DNA from: Sycon ciliatum
Taxonomy: Eukaryota > Porifera > Calcarea > Leucosolenida > Sycettidae
Direction: 5' to 3'
NCBI RefSeq assembly: GCF_964019385.1
Contig: NC_088644.1
Location: 43,222,873-43,286,872, forward strand
Length of the DNA stretch: 64,000 nucleotides
Shown: positions 3,023 through 56,621 of the stretch, piece after piece
Layout of the letters: every line of letters starts with the position of its first letter
Position numbering within the stretch: position 1 is the stretch's first letter
Made by a program: the position numbers and the translations under genes
The notes under the pieces: model-generated
What the model saw: the letters and a program-made list of their open reading frames with translations, nothing else
Databases searched by the model: none
What the model was told of the DNA's origin: nothing

Positions 3023-6000
3023 AAGTGAAATAGTCACAAAAGGCACAATGGAGTTTTACGTGTAATAGTGCTCCACATTATTGTGTCGAGCCCTCTCCGC
3101 TGGCAGAAGGAAGTTTTCCTCCTTGAAATGAAATAGTCTATTTCTGACTTTCGAATCAGAAACTGGACAAAGGGGGTTGGGACCGAAGAATTTCCCTGCG
3201 AAGTTCTTTCCTCCAGGTTGGGATGCTTGCATTAACGTACATGGACAAGGCCCACGGGCTCACTACCTGATTACCTTCAAGCCTATGATTCGCTGTAGTC
3301 CATGTACGTTCCTGCAGTACTCCTCTGGATCTATGACAGGAGGGGATCGTGCTGCCCGGCAGTTTGTCTCTTCCACAGAAAAGGGCATTGATTAATCATG
3401 AGCTTACCGCAGAGCACAACGAAAGCATTGTAGCATGAAACTAATTTGTCTGAATACAAATCTGCACAATGGCACAGACGGCTAATGGAGGTAAAGCATA
3501 GCATCACCAGCATTGTATTCCTGGAAGCACTGCAAGTTATAGATTTAGGTATCAATATTTATCTAAGCTTTAGCGAAGTCCGGACGCAGTACATTACTAG
3601 TGTGAAAGATAGAAGAAAAAGCAATGATATCCGTATATACCCGGAAAGAGAGGTGAGAGTGGGTGGGAGTAAGTGAAAGCACTTGTACAAGCTAAACATC
3701 TGTGCAACCGGAAAGAGCAGAGAAAAGGGTAAAGCAATTACACAGGCCATGCGTACGAGGTAAATTAGCAGTGAGACCCAAACATTCTTGTAAACCAGAA
3801 TGCAGCTTCAGCACACATTTTCTATTTCTTCATGTTGCGCTGCTGTTGCCGTTTCCCAACGATATGATGAGGCTCTCCGTTATGCTTCTGCTGGTTTTCC
3901 TGTGCAGGTATGTGGTGCCGTAGCTCAGAGAAATCTTTGGCCAGGGTAGCCAAGATGGCATCACCCACATCCTCCTCTCCTTCAGGTTCACTTGTAGGTT
4001 TGGCATTCATGCTTGACATCTCCTTCAGTACTGTGTAGGTCTTCTCCTATTGGTTTTTGTCTGCCCATACCATTTGCACTGCTCAGTGATGGCGGCGACA
4101 GTCGCCTCCAGCTCACCATTTTCCATTTTTTCTTTACTTTTTGGATACGCTGTGTGTCCTTGAGGTAGCATTTGAGGCTGACCAGTTCTTCTACCTTTGT
4201 TTTGCAAACATTCTTGTCTAGTGTTCAGTGATCGAACCCAGTCAACGTTGAAGCACCCTTGTTATTTCTTTCCGTTTCTTTTTATTCTTGTACACCGCTG
4301 CCTGCAACCGTGCATTTTAATAGGTTTGCGAGAAATCTCTTTTCACCTGCAGCAACCAGAGTTTGAAAGTACCGACACGAACTGGAAGCATGCCCAGTTT
4401 CCAGACAACTAGCTGCTTCAAAAATTCTTATGTCAGATGAGTGACTGGTTGCGCAGCCGACATAATGGTGACATAATGTGTCCTTGTAGTTCTGTTTATT
4501 ATTACTTGTATATTTCACTGTTCGCGTCAAACTCGGCTAAAGGCCGAGTTTTCCGCATCCGTAGGAACGCCACCACCCTTCAAGGATCGTGTGTTTTAAT
4601 ATTATAGCAGTGTATTTTGGTATTTGCTTTGACCATCAGTCCTTGGCTGATGCTGGTCATACCTTCAACATGTTGACGCGTTTTTCAAGGCATTCAATAT
4701 ACGTAGGCCGCAAGATTCTATCTTTTCATACCGAATACCGATGGCTAGTGCTTCCCCACTAGCTGCGCAAGTGTCACATCTGGCTGCGGCCAACTACCCT
4801 TTAATTTGTGTGTTGCCGCTATTGCTGTCTATGTCTCTGTGTGTGCCAGTATATGAGGAACGAGAATTGGCGTTATTGTTGTTGTTGTTGTTGTTGTTGT
4901 TGTAGTCGTTGTTGTTGTTGTTCTGGTTGTCATGGGCTGTGGCTGTTGAATGTAGGCTGTTGCTTTTGTTGTTGTACTTTTAGTTGAAGCTGCATCACAA
5001 ATAGGTAACCACCTTGATGATGGTGCACAATATCCGTTGAAGAAGCCGCAAAAAAACACTATTCTCAAACCAGTGAGCTGCAGAATGAAACCAAGTATCA
5101 AGCTGGCAAAGCTGTCAGCCACTCTAAACGAAATTTACACCAAACAAGTTGCTATTTGTCAACAGGCAGTCATAAAATTCGACTCCCTGGCTCAGTTACT
5201 CTAGACTACGACTATACGAGTTGTACAGAGTACTGTATACGTGTAGTCACTGAGTAGTCTACGTCCTTGTGCATGACAGCATGCATCATGTCATGTCAGT
5301 ACATCGACATGGCAATGATGGCATGCATCCAGCACATGGCCATGGGAAAGCCCCTACAAAATGGCTTTCAGAGAAAGCCACGCGGTTGGAGAGGTAGTTT
5401 ACTCGAAAAAACTGAGAAAGAAGTGCTTTTCATCTTCTTGCTGTTCAATGTCAAGCCAGAAACAATTGAGAAGCTGCATGAAATGTGCAGAATGAGGCGA
5501 TTTCCCAGATCTTTGAAGCTAGAAAGCGCACTGGACCTGCAATCTTTTGGAACTGGTCCTTCTTGAGGACAGAGATCAGACTAGCCAGGTGACAATGCTG
5601 TGGTTTGTTGGCTGACAATATTTGGAGGAAGCTTCAGAAATGACCATGAAGAAGGTCAATTCTTGCTATTTCCTCAAGATCACCAAGGTAACAGATACTT
5701 TTCAGTGGAGAAGAAAATCATGATTCTTCGGAGTTGAGATCGCATCGGTTGTTCAATGTTTTTCACTTTCGTTTTTTTCGTTGTGTAACTGTTTGTCTTG
5801 TTGGCGTGGTTCACTGGTTTGATGCCTTACATTTCGATCATGGCCATAGTTCAGAGCAATTTTCTTCCTTCCAAGATCACTCTCTGCAGTAAATGCGCAA
5901 ATATTTTACGGAATTTCGGACTCTGTGGGATGTCATATAATTGCTGGTAATGATGTAGTGCAGAGCAGATCTGATCATTCCCCGGCAATCACTCTACCAT

Positions 6001-14955: not shown

Positions 14956-36358
<21,403 letters not shown>

Positions 36359-37765: not shown

Positions 37766-37837
37766 CTAGTATAGTATTATTACTTCCGTACCGACAATTT
37801 TACGGAAAAAAAAAATATATATATAATTATACTCAAT

Positions 37838-37883
37838 CTGCGGACAGCATGCTGTTTCGTTCTTTTTGAACTCATCAGTGCAG
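37838..37883 (-). ncRNA. hammerhead ribozyme motif A1
   Basis: On the minus strand: CTGATGA, stem II GTTC-AAAAA-GAAC, GAAA, stem III closing with TGTC, predicted cleavage after the C opposite 37843. Stem I has one mismatch next to the core (A against C) and then four pairs, so this copy may be weakened. Confidence 0.8.
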
Positions 37884-38065
37884 CACAGAGGAAATGAGGC
37901 CGAACCTGATAGCAATGAAAATAAAAATTTCCAATCAGGCCCGAACGTACCTTGCTAGAGTGCTCAAACTGACAAGTCAGTGAGCTCTGCATAACGCAAA
38001 CAGCAAAGGCACTACCCCACGCAAGAGTGCTCAACTGCTACAAGAGCAGGAGCGAAATACTCAAT

Positions 38066-38111
38066 CTGCGGACAGCATGCTGTTTCGTTCTTTTTGAACT
38101 CATCAGCGCAG
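38066..38111 (-). ncRNA. hammerhead ribozyme motif A2
   Basis: Same as A1 but with a fully paired five-base stem I (CTGCG with CGCAG) and intact CTGATGA, GAAA and GTC cleavage triplet. This is the most complete type A copy. Confidence 0.87.
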
Positions 38112-38155
38112 CACAGAGGAAATGAGATATATAATTATATATATCTACCCAATGA

Positions 38156-38199
38156 TGTAGACAGCAAGCTGTTTCGGCCATAAAGGCCTCATCAGTACA
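38156..38199 (-). ncRNA. hammerhead ribozyme motif B1
   Basis: CTGATGA, stem II GGCC-TTTAT-GGCC, GAAA, stem III CAGC-TT-GCTG, then TC and stem I (TGTA with TACA). All core positions of the hammerhead consensus are present. Confidence 0.88.
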
Positions 38200-38264
38200 G
38201 CTACGAGCTAAATAGGCCGAGCTACCAGCCGTGGTGCAAAGGAGGCACCACAGATATACTCAAT

Positions 38265-38310
38265 CTGCGGACAGAACTGTTTCGTCCTTTGTGGACTCGT
38301 CAGCCGGCAG
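38265..38310 (-). ncRNA. hammerhead ribozyme motif A3
   Basis: CTGACGA (the variable core position is C), stem II GTCC-ACAAA-GGAC and GAAA. Stem III is shortened (CAG-TT-CTG), ending in TC. Stem II differs from A1/A2 at paired positions yet still pairs, which is covariation. Stem I has a small insertion. Confidence 0.82.
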
Positions 38311-38540
38311 CACAGAGGAAATGAGGCCGAACCTGATAGCAATGGAAATAAAAATTTCCAATCAGGCCCGAACGTACCTTGCCAGAGTGCTCAAACTGAC
38401 AAGTCAGTGAGCTCTGCATAAAGCAAACAGCAAAGGCACTACCCCACGCAATAGTGCTCAACTGCTATATATATATATATATACCCAATGCTATGCAAGG
38501 GTGCTCAACTGCTACAAGATATATACACTCAATTTGCATA

Positions 38541-38925
38541 TACCGTAAAATCCCGCCAGAGCGCCCCTACCTCCTCGACGCTTCAGGTGGGGAGGGGCGG
38601 ATGGGCGAGTCCTACTTGCCGCATTCAGTGCTACATGAAAAAGAACTCACCCTACAAAAACTGTTCGTGCATCTCGTACACCGACCAAAGGTCAAGAGCC
38701 AGGAGTCGTACAGACCCGACAAAACGCAGGGTTTGTGCGATCCCTGGTCAAGAGGGTGGGCACTGTTGCGTACATTTCCAACGGGGTTGAGCACGCGTCT
38801 GCAGTACAGTACGGCATCACAGACTGCGACAGAGTCATACGAGGATACAATCAATCACGTCCCTGACAAGAAGTCAGGGAGGGGCGGATGGGAGAGACGG
38901 AGCGCTCTGGCGGGATTTTACGGTA
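38541..38925. mobile_element. 385-bp TACCGTAAAA MITE, copy 1
   Basis: Ends TACCGTAAAATCCCGCCAG and CTGGCGGGATTTTACGGTA, with terminal TA as probable target duplication. It is nearly identical to 39914-40298 over the same 385 bp. It is inserted inside the ribozyme cluster. Confidence 0.9.
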
Positions 38926-38945
38926 TATATATATATATACCCAAT

Positions 38946-38993
38946 GCTGTAGACAGCAAGCTGTTTCGGCCATAAATGCCTCATCAGTACAGC
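38946..38993 (-). ncRNA. hammerhead ribozyme motif B2
   Basis: CTGATGA, stem II with three pairs and one mismatch, GAAA, stem III CAGC-TT-GCTG, TC, and a six-pair stem I (GCTGTA with TACAGC). It is a diverged sister of B1. Confidence 0.83.
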
Positions 38994-39469
38994 TACGAGC
39001 TAAATAGGCCGAGCTACCAGCCATGGTGCAAAGAAGGCACCACAGACATTAAGATGGCTCGTCGCTCTAGCGCCAGAGCGCTCAAACTACAAAAAGTATA
39101 TATATATAACGCACCGAAAATTTCAGTACTAGTACATGTACATACTTGGACAACAGGTTTAGCGAAAATTTCCCTCCACCGAACCACCGATTTTGGAGAA
39201 TACCGACAATATTGCACCACCGAAAATTTCTGCTTTTACAGTAGTCGACGCTGGACGACTTGGCGCATGGAACCGGGCATTCCCCATACTGCCCATAGCT
39301 CAGAACCAGGAAGTGCTCCTTGCTCATCAGTTTTGATCAGGGAGTCGTATAATTGATGATTAGTTTATATCGCACGAATTGCAAATATAACAAAAAGAAG
39401 AAAAAAGAATCCAATGATGAAAACGTGTAGATTGGCATGGCATCATCATGATCATCGACAGTGCCGGGG

Positions 39470-40345
39470 TCAATGGCAAGAATAGACGTCTGCAGGGCCT
39501 TCCGGCCGGCTATCAAAATAGTGAATTCTACTACTACCGTAAAGTACCATTGATCCCGCCGCCCCCTCTCTAATTCCCGCCCCCTCTCTAATTCCCGCCC
39601 CCTCTCTAATTCCCGCCCCCTCTCTAATTCCCGCCCGCCTGTCAATTTTCTACCTGTGAAGCGATTTCGACGTATACAACGGAATACGATGTTGAACCGA
39701 CGCTTGCACTGCTGTACACGATATGTGCCAATCCATGATGAAAATGTGCACACTCCAGCACACCGAGTCTAATCCTCGACGTTGTTTTACACCGTACTGT
39801 ACTTCACAGCCTTGATCTAATTCCCGCCCCCTACCGAAAACCAGCTGGGAAGCGACACCGCGTGGGGGGGGGGGGGGATCAACGGTATTTTACGGTACTA
39901 CTACTACTACTACTACCGTAAAATCCCGCCAGAGCGTCTCCACCTCCTCGACGCTTCGAGTGGGGAGGGGCGGATGGGCGAGTCCTACTTGCCGCATTCA
40001 GTGCTACATGAAAAAGTACTCACCCTACGAAAACTGTTCGTGCATCTCGTACACCGACCAAAGGTCAAGAGCCAGGAGTCGTACAGACCCGACAAAACGC
40101 AGGGTTTGTGCGATCCCTGGACAAGAGGGTGGGCACTGTTGCGTACATTTCCAACGGGGTTGAGCACGCGTCTGCAGTGCAGTACGGCATCACAGACTGC
40201 GACAGAGTCATACGAGGATACAATCAATCACGTCCCTGACAAGAAGTCAGGGAGGGGCGGATGGGAGAGACGGGGCGCTCTGGCGGTATTTTACGGTACT
40301 ACAACTACTACTACTACTACTACTACAACTACTACTACATACATG
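39470..40345. mobile_element. short retroposon with two MITEs inside its (CTA)n tail
   Basis: The retroposon 3' end (GTCTGCAGGGCCTTCC, TATCAAAATAGTGAATTC) leads into CTA repeats. These are interrupted by one MITE (39535-39897, ends TACCGTAAAGTACC and GGTATTTTACGGTA) and then by a second (39914-40298). CTA units continue to about 40337. Related retroposon ends occur near 2235 and 50150. The first MITE contains an 18-bp tandem repeat (TCTAATTCCCGCCCCCTC, about 39560-39640). Confidence 0.82.
39914..40298. mobile_element. 385-bp TACCGTAAAA MITE, copy 2
   Basis: Same length and sequence, apart from a few substitutions, as the element at 38541. The high identity suggests recent movement. Confidence 0.9.
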
Positions 40346-50710: not shown

Positions 50711-51399
50711 TTATCACCTTGCTGTGAGTAAGACCGCTTGAAATATGCTTGGATCCATACAAAAACTGGATCCATATGGATCCAGTTTTTATGGATCCAG
50801 TTTTTGAATTTTTGAAAAAAAATTATTTTTTAAATATTCACATGCAAAATCATGAAAATGGCATGCAATTGAAAGCATGACTGTATGCCCTGGCACTGGT
50901 CACCTATGTCATTACATGTATACAGTACATGTCTATTTAAAAACAACAATACATACATCATTACATGTACACTCCGTGACAGCCATCGACATCGCTGTAT
51001 ACCGCCGACAGAAGTTTGCTCACTAGTAGTAGTAATGGATAAAGCAAGCCAGAAAAATCACCACAGGTTCCATCCTCGAACACAAAGCCAAAGCCAAGGG
51101 CCAGCTAGCAAAACAGGAAAAAGGCTCCACATGTGCACAGTGAACTCGCTCGACGCGCCAAGCTGGCCTGGGACTAGTCGACTGACAGTATGTCTTGACT
51201 AGTTTGAGGGAAACGGTATGCCCATTATTTTTTGAAGCTTTCGCCATCAGTGCAGCATGCATGCCTGCAGCGAGATTCGGCATCGTACAGCAGTCAGCAC
51301 ACGTGTAGGCGCGTATGCCATCACGTTCGTCCCGTACATTCATTTATTCTTGAAGTACGCATGCGCGGTTCCTAGGGGAATTTGGAAGAGTTTGGAAAA

Positions 51400-53517
51400 A
51401 TGGCCTCGCGTCCTGTGCGCACGAAGCCGCGATGGAGGCAAATTCCGCTCAGGGACATGACTGGTCCCAACCCAAGGCCAAGGCATGGACATAGAGCAGT
51501 GGCAATTCGTGATTTGATAATTATCTTTGGCGGTGGCAATGAAGGAATTGTTGATGAGCTCCACGTGCTCAATACTGCTACAAATCAATGGTTTACTCCA
51601 CCAGTACGAGGGGATATCCCCAGTGGCTGTGCAGCATTTGGATTCATTTGTGATGGTGTTCGTCTATTGATATTCGGAGGCATGGTGGAGTACGGACGAT
51701 ACACGAATGATTTGTATGAATTGCTTGCCAGCCGTTGGGAATGGCGGCGTCTCACTCCGTTGGGGGAACCCCCATGTCCCAGGTTAGGTCATAGTTTCAA
51801 CTTGGTCGGAGAACGAGCTTACATTTTTGCTGGTCTGGCAAACGATGCACAGGAGATGAAGAGGAATGTTCCACGCTATCTGAACGATCTGTTCACACTG
51901 GACGTGAAGGAAGGCACCACACTGCACTGGGGTGTACCCACTACGAGCGGGCCGCTGCCGCACGAACGCGAATCGCACTCGTGCGTGTCGATAAGCAGCA
52001 GCGACTCGCACGGTGGCGAGGGTGGAAAACTGCTCGTGTTTGGCGGAATGTGCGGTCACCGTATGAACGATCTATGGATGCTGGACATAAAATATATGAC
52101 GTGGTATGAGGTGTCGGCGGGTAGCGGCTTACCTCCCTCACCGCGCAGCTTACACACAGCAGTACTGATCAAGGATAAAATGTATGTTTACGGAGGCTGG
52201 GTACCTCTGGATCCGGATGATAAGTATGGAACAATGAGTCTAGCGCAGGCGGGTGCTACTAAATTATTAAACCGCTCAAGCACTGCAACCACCGACGCCA
52301 GAGCACCATCGGGCGGCGAGAGCTTGCCGAACAATGAAGACCTCGCGGAGCACGAGCGCGAGTGGAAGTGCACGAACAGTTTGGTTAGATACAATCTGGG
52401 CACACGCGCCTGGGAGTCGCTCTGCGTGGCGGAGTCTGTCAAGGAGGACCTGTGTCCTCGCTCTCGCGCCGGCCACTGTGCAGCGGGCGTGGACACTCGT
52501 ATGTACATCTGGTCTGGCCGCGACGGCCATCGCAAGCTGTCGCAGAACCAGCAGTGCTGCCGCGACCTATGGTATCTGGAGACGGAGCGCCCGCCAGCAC
52601 CACCTCGTGTTCAGCTGGTCAGGGCTTCGACCAATACGCTGGAGGTGTGCTGGTCGGGAACGCCAACGGCCGAGAATTACATCCTGCAGGTACAGAAGTA
52701 TGACGCCCCCAGTAAATCTGCAGCAGCCAGTGGTGCCGCTACTGGGCCTGCTTCCTCGGGACAGACAAGTAGCGGTGCTACAGCTGTCACTGCCAATGAG
52801 ACCTCGTCAGAAGCTGCTAGCAGCGCAGGCCTGCACTGGTACAACGTTGGCCGATGCAAGCAGACGACCATGGTTGTGACGCACTATGCGAACACCGAGT
52901 CTGACGACTTGCCCAGTGATGCCAACGTGCTCGGTGAAACCGATCCCACAATGAACAATCCAGCGAATCGTGTCGAGCTGCAGCCGGGCACAGCATATAA
53001 ATTCCGCGTGGCGGCCATCAACGCATGCGGAGTGGGAGAGTTTTCGGACATCGCTGCATTCAAGACTTGCTTGCCTGGTTTCCCGGGTGCGCCGAGTGCA
53101 ATTCGTATAAGCAAGGGTAGTGACGGGGCGCATCTGAGCTGGGAGCCTCCGGCTAACTCCGCCGGTACAATCACCGAGTACTCTGTGTATCTGGCGATCC
53201 GCAGTCCGAGCCAGGCGGCGGCAGCTGCCAGCGCCACGCAGGCCGTGCAGCTGGCGTTTGTGCGTGTCTACTGCGGCGCTGAGCCACTGTGTACCGTCTC
53301 CTCAACAAGCTTGTCCTCTGCGCACGTGGATGTCACGACAAAGCCGGCTATCATCTTCCGCATTGCGGCGCGCAATGAGAAGGGCTACGGTCCGGCTACC
53401 CAGGTCAGATGGTTACAGGAAGTCAAATCCGAGGCAACCGCCCCTACCAGTCAGAAACGTCCTGTAGATGCAGCTGCAGGTGCGGGCGGTGAGGCGAAGA
53501 AGTCCAAACTCGAGTAA
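51400..53517 (+). CDS. host cell factor (HCF), intronless, no long central region
   Basis: HCF is a nuclear adaptor that links DNA-bound factors to chromatin-modifying complexes. ATG 51400 is the first after an in-frame TAG at 51373 and has a good context (AAAATGG). The 705-residue protein has a six-bladed Kelch domain (about 10-395) with [64 protein letters not shown] and [12 protein letters not shown]. Next comes the first half of a fibronectin III fold ([18 protein letters not shown], about 398-440), an Ala/Ser/Gly linker of about 35 residues, and the second half (HWYNVGR to [18 protein letters not shown]). A second fibronectin III domain follows (about 561-685), ending [16 protein letters not shown]. 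The end has KRP and KKSK, a likely bipartite nuclear signal. The proteolytic repeats and long middle of vertebrate HCF-1 are absent, as in HCFC2 and the nematode protein. No intron interrupts it. Confidence 0.97.
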
Positions 53518-54778: not shown

Positions 54779-54950
54779 TACCGTATTTTCTCTAATAAGA
54801 GCCCGGGTTCTTATTGTTTAAGTGACAGCTCTACCCGCGCTACTATCAGAGATTGTGCTGTTATTGGAGACTGTGCTTTTATTTTTTCAATGCTCCACTA
54901 TCAAGCCAACTTCAGTCTATATACAGTCAACCTACCCTTATAACGATAAC

Positions 54951-55571
54951 CCCTATAACGATGGGGTTTGCTCCCCACGCTGGAGCTCGCGCTATTCCGC
55001 CGACTTTACTTTAGCACGAGCTCCAGTGTGGGAAGCAAACCCTTTCTTACAAATCATCGCCGAAGTCGCAACCACTACTTCGTACTGTTGTGCCCAGCGC
55101 GGGCTTGCGACTAGTTGGTTTGGAGGTGACAGCGTTGCGAATGACCGAGGGTCCTCAACGTCTGGTCTCACCGTCCAGGAGCGACACTGACTCACGCTGC
55201 TATCTGGTGTTCACGAGGTGTTTGTCGCGCTGGAAATGGAGCGTCTCTGTAAGTTTGTATCCCTGGTGATGTTTGTGCCTGGAGAGCACTATATAAGTGG
55301 TGCTCTTCAGCCACAATCTTCCTCAGCCTACTCAAGCTCAACTGATGAGGGGTGAATTCCCCGAAACACTGTGTATTGAGCAGGGAGTGGTGCTTTCTTG
55401 CAGGTTTGCCGAGTCGAAGGTTCGATGGACTTCTCGTGTGCTCTGGATGGCAGTCGTGAGTCAGTCAAGTGTCAAGTAAAGTCGGCGGAATAGCGCGAGC
55501 TCCGGTGTGGGGAGCAAACCCTTTCTTACAAATCACCGCCGAAGTCGCAACCACTACTTCCCTATAACGAT
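54951..55571 (+). mobile_element. hammerhead-bearing retroelement with 12-bp target duplication
   Basis: Insert 54963-55559 (597 bp) is flanked by CCCTATAACGAT (54951-54962 and 55560-55571). It carries about 60 bp of direct repeat (AGCAAACCCTTTCTTACAAA through CGCAACCACTACTT) at 55031 and 55513, and inverted terminal segments (GGGTTTGCTC and GAGCAAACCC). ACTATATAAG at about 55289 could be a TATA box 45-50 bp before the ribozyme. There is no protein frame. The layout suits a retrozyme or a Penelope-type terminal repeat unit. Confidence 0.75.
55336..55381 (+). ncRNA. hammerhead ribozyme motif C
   Basis: Stem I GCTCAA with TTGAGC (six pairs), CTGATGA, stem II GGGG-TGAATT-CCCC, GAAA, a very short stem III (CA-CTG-TG region), then TA before stem I. 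All conserved core bases are present. The cleavage site would be after A 55375. The minimal stem III resembles the hammerheads described in Penelope-like elements. Sequence outside the core is unlike types A and B. Confidence 0.8.
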
Positions 55572-56621
55572 ATTACCCTTATAACGTATTTTTCTGCCAA
55601 ACCAAATCACTCCGTTGACTTTTGTATACAACGCCTTACCCTTACTTCAAGTATAACAATACCGGTATTGCTATAACGATATTACCCCAAAAAACATGGG
55701 CTGACCAATCGACATTTTCCATTTTTATAACAATATCCAGCAGGGAATATCCAGCAGGGAATATCCAGCAGGGAATATCCAGCAGGGAATATGTAGAGTC
55801 CACTGTACTGTAGGGCAAGCTTCACTTGATAAGTCGCTAACAGTAACAGTTAGGACATGACGAAATGCGATGAGGGCACCAGTGGGCACCTTGCTGTGTA
55901 CATAATGTGCATGTACATACGTTTTTGACGCTATGAAGAGAGTAAGAAATGAACTAAATTCATGCATTATGACGTACATGTATGCATGAACCAGTTACCC
56001 TTATAACAATATTACCCTTATAACAATATTTCTTGGTCGGACGCAAATATCGTTATAAGGGTAGGTCGACTGTACTATAGGCATAAGCTGACTGTAGCAA
56101 GACTCATTATCTCAACCCTAAACTCAGGAATATTGTCAAAACTGATGTTTCACAATACAAACATGGGCGCCAGGAGGGAAGTAGTAGACTGAAAATCTCC
56201 TTACAAATATTATGTGCTTGGCATGCGACACTGCTGTTTTTTATATGCAGTCATTATACGCTTCAATTGTGGCCCGCGCTATCATTAGAGACTGTGCTTT
56301 GATTATTGCGAACAACTCTCACCCCGCCCGGGTCATTATTAGAGACTGGGGTCTTATTGGAGAAAATATGGTAACCTTGTTTCAGGTCGGCTGACCGGGT
56401 CATGTTAGAGAGGCTGCGCATAACGAATATTCGTAAGATTTGGACCGTCCAGGTTCGAGTAAAAAAAGTTGCTACAAAGATCCAACCGAACACGACCGAA
56501 ACAGACAACAACAGACGCTCAACTTGACGGCGTGGGACGGGACGGGCGGGGGATTCAGCCTGTTGGCGCCAAGGAAATACAGATCATACCATACAGTAAA
56601 TTTATAGAAAATGTGAAAAGG

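Follow-up and report, generated by a model that had tools for sequence, protein, structure and literature searches.

The window analysed here, by which we mean the whole 64,000-nt stretch of DNA, carries a nest of hammerhead-bearing copies of two families, A and B, and, on the other strand, an insertion of a third family, C, that resembles Penelope-like elements (PLEs). The positions of these features are collected in Table 1. A MITE-like element of 385-390 bp sits within the nest (38540-38927); it has a second, 97%-identical copy at 39914-40298, and its ends are terminal inverted repeats of 27-30 bp (TACCGTAAAATCCCGCCAGAGCGC). Between the nest and the family C insertion lies a single open frame of 713 aa (51376-53517) for a homologue of HCFC with Kelch repeats and fibronectin type III (Kelch_HCF, E 2.4e-144; HCF C-terminal chain, E 5.6e-80), from which we infer that the window belongs to an animal genome.

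Table 1. Features of the hammerhead nest and of the family C insertion in the window
Feature	Position	Strand	Remarks
Left target-site duplication of insertion I, ATATATAATTATA	37819..37831		Exact 13-bp match to 38127-38139
Insertion I, family A retrozyme, 1.29 units (228 bp + 67 bp)	37832..38126	minus	Start CTCAATC at 37832; a hammerhead at each end
Hammerhead A1 core	37843..37878	minus	Predicted cut between 37843 and 37842
Hammerhead A2 core	38071..38106	minus	Predicted cut between 38071 and 38070; three intact stems; Rfam HH9 28.8 bits (sub-threshold)
Right target-site duplication of insertion I	38127..38139		13 bp, perfect, ATATATAATTATA
Family B copy B1, 0.46 unit	38148..38257	minus	Canonical start CCCAAT at 38148
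Hammerhead B1 core	38160..38195	minus	Both pattern scans and permissive Rfam
Family A copy A3, 0.92 unit	38259..38467	minus	Subtype with stem II GTCC/GGAC and shorter stem III
Hammerhead A3 core	38270..38303	minus	Rfam type I 25.8 bits (sub-threshold)
Remnant, 9-nt B-type start fused to A/B-type tail	38484..38519	minus	Direct reading, by which it has no hammerhead
11-nt stub CTCAATTTGCA	38528..38538	minus	Direct reading
Family B copy B2, 0.67 unit	38940..39096	minus	
Hammerhead B2 core	38952..38987	minus	One stem II pair broken (GGCA/GGCC)
Target duplication of family C insertion, CCCTATAACGAT	left 54951..54962; right 55560-55571		
Family C insertion, PLE-like, 479-bp unit	54963..55559	plus	48-bp inverted arm and 1.15-unit direct arm
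TATA-box-like CTATATAAGTGG	55289..55300	plus	Putative function; begins 53 nt upstream of the family C hammerhead core
Family C hammerhead, short stem III	55342..55375	plus	Predicted GUA cut after 55375

The first-pass annotation had reported five minus-strand hammerheads within 1.2 kb, and these are real. A scan for the core together with stems II and III returned six sites in the window as against 0.1 per simulated window, and a simpler core pattern gave six matches against a shuffle mean of 0.43; on these comparisons a chance origin of the hammerheads was rejected. The match of the simpler pattern at 35302 (+) fails the core-plus-stems scan, while the stem scan found a sixth hammerhead, of a different type, at 55342-55375 (+), for which Rfam gave no match even at E<=1. 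Absence of any covariance-model hit had been named beforehand as evidence against the ribozymes, and this was half borne out: at the gathering threshold Rfam has no match across the entire 64,000-nt window, but a permissive scan of 1.5 kb yielded five sub-threshold hammerhead matches, each on a separate core (HH9, 28.8 and 27.8 bits; type I, 25.8; type III, 25.9 and 22.4). A gammacoronavirus 5′ UTR match in the permissive scan is noise (21.3 bits vs 124.9). The annotation was right that there are two types but not that they strictly alternate, the actual order being A A B A B, and the 228-bp monomer spacing that it gave for type A holds for A1-A2 and not for the other type A cores. An A.C mismatch closes stem I in A1; the common type has no such mismatch.

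The change of stem II from GTTC/GAAC to GTCC/GGAC, which had been taken as a sign of selection on structure, is likewise real, and the hammerhead stems covary in an alignment of eight distinct hammerheads out of the 41 found in the fetched loci. In this alignment 98.2% of cells are paired (0/500 shuffles as high), and both sides have changed in 14 cells, against a shuffle mean of 4.8 (0/500 as high) and 0-2 with the partner slid. Five pairs have a change on both sides (3.0 in shuffles; 16/500 as high); further pair types were not in excess (493/500 shuffles). We read the covarying cells as a few ancestral types rather than numerous separate events.

Both families are dispersed through the genome, which comprises 538 Mb in 313 contigs. 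A genome-wide search returned 3,614 exact A-type cores (reversed control, 0) and multiple dispersed tandem arrays of A units (228 bp, or 226 bp in a subtype) and B units (237 bp), which disposes of the suggestion that these units might be absent elsewhere. Stem II is of a matching type in 98 of the first 100 cores listed, the others having one C/A mismatch and one U/G pair. The arrays inspected consist of unit repeats alone, and beyond the hammerhead A and B have blocks in common, above all near the copy start. Both families have type I hammerheads with a conserved core and three stems, both have, where duplications are present, target duplications longer than 4 bp, and both coexist with PLEs, to which the genome has at least 57 matches. 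A scan of viral contigs with the family A core found no relatives.

Copy ends were analysed in 38 A loci and 39 B loci fetched from among the best-scoring matches; several loci were dropped as repeats of other insertions (L018, L029, L044, L045, L046, L078, L079 and L099), as were five arrays reaching the locus edge. After duplicate removal, 74 of 77 arrays begin at one point, CYCAAT, to within a few bases shared with the flank (cruder removal gave similar counts, 76/79 and 74), the non-canonical starts being L014, a fragment in L034 and one in L080. The start comes after TA in 65 of the 74 canonical arrays, and on the RNA its distance past the predicted ribozyme cut is 11 nt in family A and 12 nt in family B. 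Since the search queries began at the copy start, selection could favour canonical starts. The bias checks found a canonical start in 16/17 A arrays of at least 2.3 units (the seventeenth, L014, abuts an assembly gap), in 15/15 B arrays of at least 1.68 units, and in all seven assessable mid-unit matches (8 fetched of 40), including copies at 84-86% identity. The other ends lie 0.46-14.9 units beyond the start. For family A they fit a uniform spread over the unit (p=0.52), and for family B the fit is borderline (p=0.052, or 0.027 in the cruder count), with an excess near one full unit. Flanks of the arrays are 80% AT. Target duplications of at least 7 bp were found in 50/74 arrays, compared with a rate of 9.2% when mismatched pairs were scored; once simple and AT-only duplications are set aside, the complex ones that remain occur in 27/74 arrays, compared with 1.9%; 24 of the 74 arrays have no target duplication of 7 bp or more. 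Dispersed arrays, AT-rich flanks, target duplications and covarying hammerheads together uphold the earlier proposal of a non-coding, retrozyme-like family that inserted repeatedly in AT tracts.

The genomic copies thus present a fixed start, a variable end and target duplications, to which array homogeneity and an excess of 11-nt inserts at the predicted cut are added below. We consider it probable that the nest is made up of non-coding retrotransposons belonging to the non-LTR retrozymes of animals, which would move via target-primed reverse transcription of circular or multimeric RNA. Minus-strand RNA would fold its hammerheads and cut itself to unit lengths, and the unit-length RNA would then be sealed into circles. 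A reverse transcriptase from another element would prime on a nicked target, usually ending in TA. Copying would begin just past stem I, 11-12 nt beyond the cut, with the whole hammerhead copied first, and would continue round the circle, or along an uncut multimer, until the enzyme falls off.

The mobilising enzyme of A and B is, by our inference, most likely that of a PLE. The genome has an 807-aa PLE frame with GIY-YIG; this frame contains YGLPKDHK and YIDD, which we take to be PLE-typical motifs. Among the PLE matches listed are head-to-head arrays and five copies in tandem, spaced 2,935 bp apart. Hammerhead-like cores of a minimal sort lie beside the PLE frames in L127 and L128, and the hammerhead pattern was not found in the PLE stretches L126 and L129. 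Blastn gave no match of note between L126 and any of the three families, or between L127-L129 and family C, and an origin from the stretch compared was rejected in each case; comparison of L126 with A and B revealed no common start sequence. The viral contig scan with the PLE protein found no relatives. The PLE frame of L126 is flanked by inverted repeats of about 275 bp (490-762 and 3224-3501) with 95.7% identity.

Family C provides a second view of copy ends in the same genome. Its 479-bp unit has 245 genome matches reported, the longest mostly at 97-99% identity. Insertions often consist of two head-to-head arrays with the RNA 3′ ends pointing outward, and most of the outer ends lie at one or other of two places separated by 32 nt. 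The count covers 38 clusters among the matches listed, 17 of them with one arm listed. Of the 21 two-armed clusters, 16 have one short and one long outer end (the short end being left in 7 and right in 9), and the remaining five have one long end and the other at neither place. One short and one long end also occur in L116, which is additional to the listed clusters, and the window copy has one long end, its other end lying 7 nt inside the usual short place. No long/long pairs were seen among the clusters listed; long matches score higher, so such pairs would not be under-sampled, and short/short pairs may be under-sampled for the same reason. All 11 insertions examined have target duplications, of 7-14 nt and mostly 12-14 (22 in one simple repeat). 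Ten of the 11 exceed the longest (8) among 90 mismatched pairs; the 7-nt duplication of L110 could be chance, and those of L117 and L121 are simple repeats. Around the window insertion, at 54890-56080, CCCTTATAACGATATT-like motifs recur, possibly a separate short repeat family that was the target of the insertion.

The two arms of a family C insertion are closely related. Divergence per kb is 3.95 between opposite arms of one insertion, 2.84 within the same arm and 10.28 between different insertions; mispaired arms were as close in 0 of 2,000 trials, and one of eight insertions is discordant (18.3). The arms meet at phases at least 100 apart in 7/11 insertions, on which ground snap-back self-priming was rejected as the general source of the inverted arms, and at phases within 17 in 4/11 (L106, L107, L121 and L124). 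Snap-back may explain a minority of the insertions. The arm phases suit priming from both target ends better than self-priming on antisense RNA, to which head-to-head PLE arms have been attributed (PMC3846280, as far as its text was available). The same source describes PLEs with an inverted head arm, an optional 31-bp tail at one inverted end, a TATA box and short target duplications. The Adineta vaga Penelope features of an inverted head arm, a 31-32 nt one-end tail and a TATA-like box recur in family C, and tandem copies and a target duplication are present in both (PMC3846280). Family C thus has an inverted head arm, a 30-40 nt tail at one end and a target duplication, and fits the structural part of the published PLE picture. 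It differs from PLEs in that its arms meet so far out of phase in most of the insertions and in that the unit has no long frame: a search for a frame with reverse transcriptase and GIY-YIG found at most 90 aa in the 479-bp unit, which also shows no blastn similarity of note to L126-L129. As judged from its structure, family C would be a non-autonomous PLE relative at most.

These observations bear on whether a LINE, rather than a PLE, mobilises A and B, which we regard as possible though short of probable. Target duplications of 7-16 bp also suit LINEs, and Nematostella retrozymes with 15-bp target duplications have been likened to LINE insertions in the accessible part of PMC4918200. Against a LINE stand the abundance of PLEs in this genome and the presence, in the same genome, of family C, whose PLE-type ends accompany target duplications in a similar size range (mostly 12-14 bp).

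If the RNA is cut by the ribozyme, a linear product would end 11 nt beyond the copy start, and 11-nt inserts can therefore be read as a footprint of the cut. The stub CTCAATTTGCA in the nest resembles such a run-off product ending at the ribozyme cut, with two differences. Exact 11-nt inserts were found in L016 (CTCAATCTGCG, between copies of TGTGTATATATATA) and in L098. Genome-wide, the pattern for short A inserts gave 158 overlapping matches (reversed control, 0); 100 of these represent 47 distinct sites, and our counts cover the 35 with letters, leaving out 12 sites and the unlisted matches. Apparent lengths at the 35 sites are 7 nt (1), 8 nt (13), 9 nt (3), 10 nt (3), 11 nt (10), 15 nt (1), 18 nt (1), 19 nt (2) and 20 nt (1). 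Among inserts of at least 9 nt, 10 of 21 are exactly 11 nt and none is 12-14 nt (p about 2e-6 vs an even spread), in a test that was framed post hoc, L016 and L098 having been seen first; without the L098 site the figures are 9/20 and p about 1e-5. The 8-nt inserts (13/35 of the short class) outnumber the 11-nt ones and lie at the detection edge of the pattern. Since the pattern is blind below 7 nt, they may represent the upper end of a wide class of shorter inserts. The stub search for family B gave eight matches at about six places, with letters shown for one, which are too few sites.

Inserts longer than 11 nt cross the ribozyme cut, so the template RNA must be continuous there. Any template that crosses the cut explains them, including one that is always a long uncut multimeric transcript, with no circle and with the hammerhead incidental to insertion. 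We think this reading rather unlikely. Stubs that end at the predicted cut suggest that cut RNA reaches the reverse transcriptase, and multimers from mixed or diverged source arrays should sometimes give mixed arrays. Yet 19 of 20 A arrays are subtype-consistent, and none of the 18 multi-unit arrays among the first 100 core matches listed mixes core types; a homogeneous source array would also give unmixed arrays. Unit differences, compared with nine near-duplicate loci left out and the window copies outside the sample, are 1.6 within A arrays vs 3.08 shuffled (20 arrays; 0/2,000 as low) and 1.5 within B arrays vs 3.73 shuffled (7 arrays; 0/2,000 as low). Those first 100 core matches fall into 70 arrays, with sizes 1 to 6 represented by 52, 12, 3, 1, 1 and 1, a near-geometric series. 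Homogeneity and array sizes favour copying of a circle, and homogeneous linear multimers would fit too. In support of uncut templates, an Anolis PLE with a mutated hammerhead still inserted normally in vitro, and no RNA ends at the cut were detected (PMC11167929); provided that the helper is an enzyme of the PLE class, this argues against cutting being required. In the arrays of L016 and L028, unit variants recur in a repeating order, and some expansion therefore took place after insertion or on multimers. This pattern suggests that several units were duplicated at once, or that templates were multimeric. Tandem arrays as such, and these repeating variants as a sign of DNA-level duplication, would also be expected of satellite DNA in which unequal crossing-over multiplied a fragment carrying a relic hammerhead and the ribozyme has no role, but we hold this to be very improbable, since the arrays are dispersed and nearly all share one start point, many with target duplications, so that they mark separate insertion events, and since the hammerhead stems are kept by paired changes and the short inserts end at the predicted cut.

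Returning to reverse transcription from ribozyme-cut RNA, a further reading, which we offer tentatively, is that PLE-type reverse transcription in this genome works from RNA circles made by the ribozyme, with family C primed from both break ends. The two ends of a single staggered break would each prime on a copy of the same RNA; synthesis of one strand would begin at the inner site, that of the other 32 nt away at the tail site, and copying would roll round from both sides until the DNA strands meet. If this is true, PLE hammerheads, whose role is described as unknown in the part of PMC7761336 available, would exist for making circular templates; such templates would also explain tandem and head-to-head PLE arrays, and the 11-nt inserts, as abortive products, would record past ribozyme cutting in the genome like fossils. 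With the purified Anolis Poseidon PLE, copying begins at two internal sites that lie close together; AT-rich DNA is its preferred target, and both strands are cut and extended by it (PMC11167929). The two internal start sites and the AT-rich targets have counterparts in family C. In that study no difference between the two strands in start site was found, RNA ends at the cut were not detected, and the normal insertion of the hammerhead mutants in vitro counts against the circular-template reading (PMC11167929).

Animal retrozymes are described as tandem units with circular RNA and large target duplications (PMC7229834, in the text available). Families A and B resemble the non-LTR retrozymes of that account in their type I hammerheads with short stem III, their non-coding tandem units (about 170-400 nt in the published cases), large target duplications when present and PLEs in the genome (PMC7229834). 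Beyond that account, as far as it was available, we measured a fixed start, near-geometric arrays and inserts ending at the predicted cut, which are known here from genomic sequence. Plant LTR retrozymes share with A and B non-coding, hammerhead-bounded units and a proposed circular RNA route, but differ in having mostly type III hammerheads, LTRs and 4-bp target duplications (PMC4918200, available part). For PLEs, published work describes copying from a fixed internal start as well as a tail on one side; for retrozymes we found neither in the literature searched. In titles and abstract openings, a range outside which most subscription papers lie, there was no fixed retrozyme start, no 11-nt stubs and no short/long arm rule. 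The return of animal retrozymes to DNA has hitherto been a proposal, as has the copying of RNA circles into multimers, in the available text of PMC7229834 and PMC7761336 for the former and PMC7761336 for the latter. Here one genome yields measurable footprints of copying start, crossing of the cut, runs of more than one unit, stops at the cut and stagger length, and family C carries the two-armed, one-tail PLE signature on a small hammerhead unit, linking retrozymes and PLEs. The elements themselves belong to a known kind; what deserves following is family C together with the copy-end footprints, and the footprints give concrete predictions for other genomes and for in vitro work. Two further observations were made beside the arrays: another hammerhead family (CTGAGGAGCTCT..AGAGCGAAAC) lies near A and B arrays in L025 and L083, and a tRNA-like sequence (L015:2664-2731; Rfam tRNA, 37.9 bits) adjoins a nine-unit A array.
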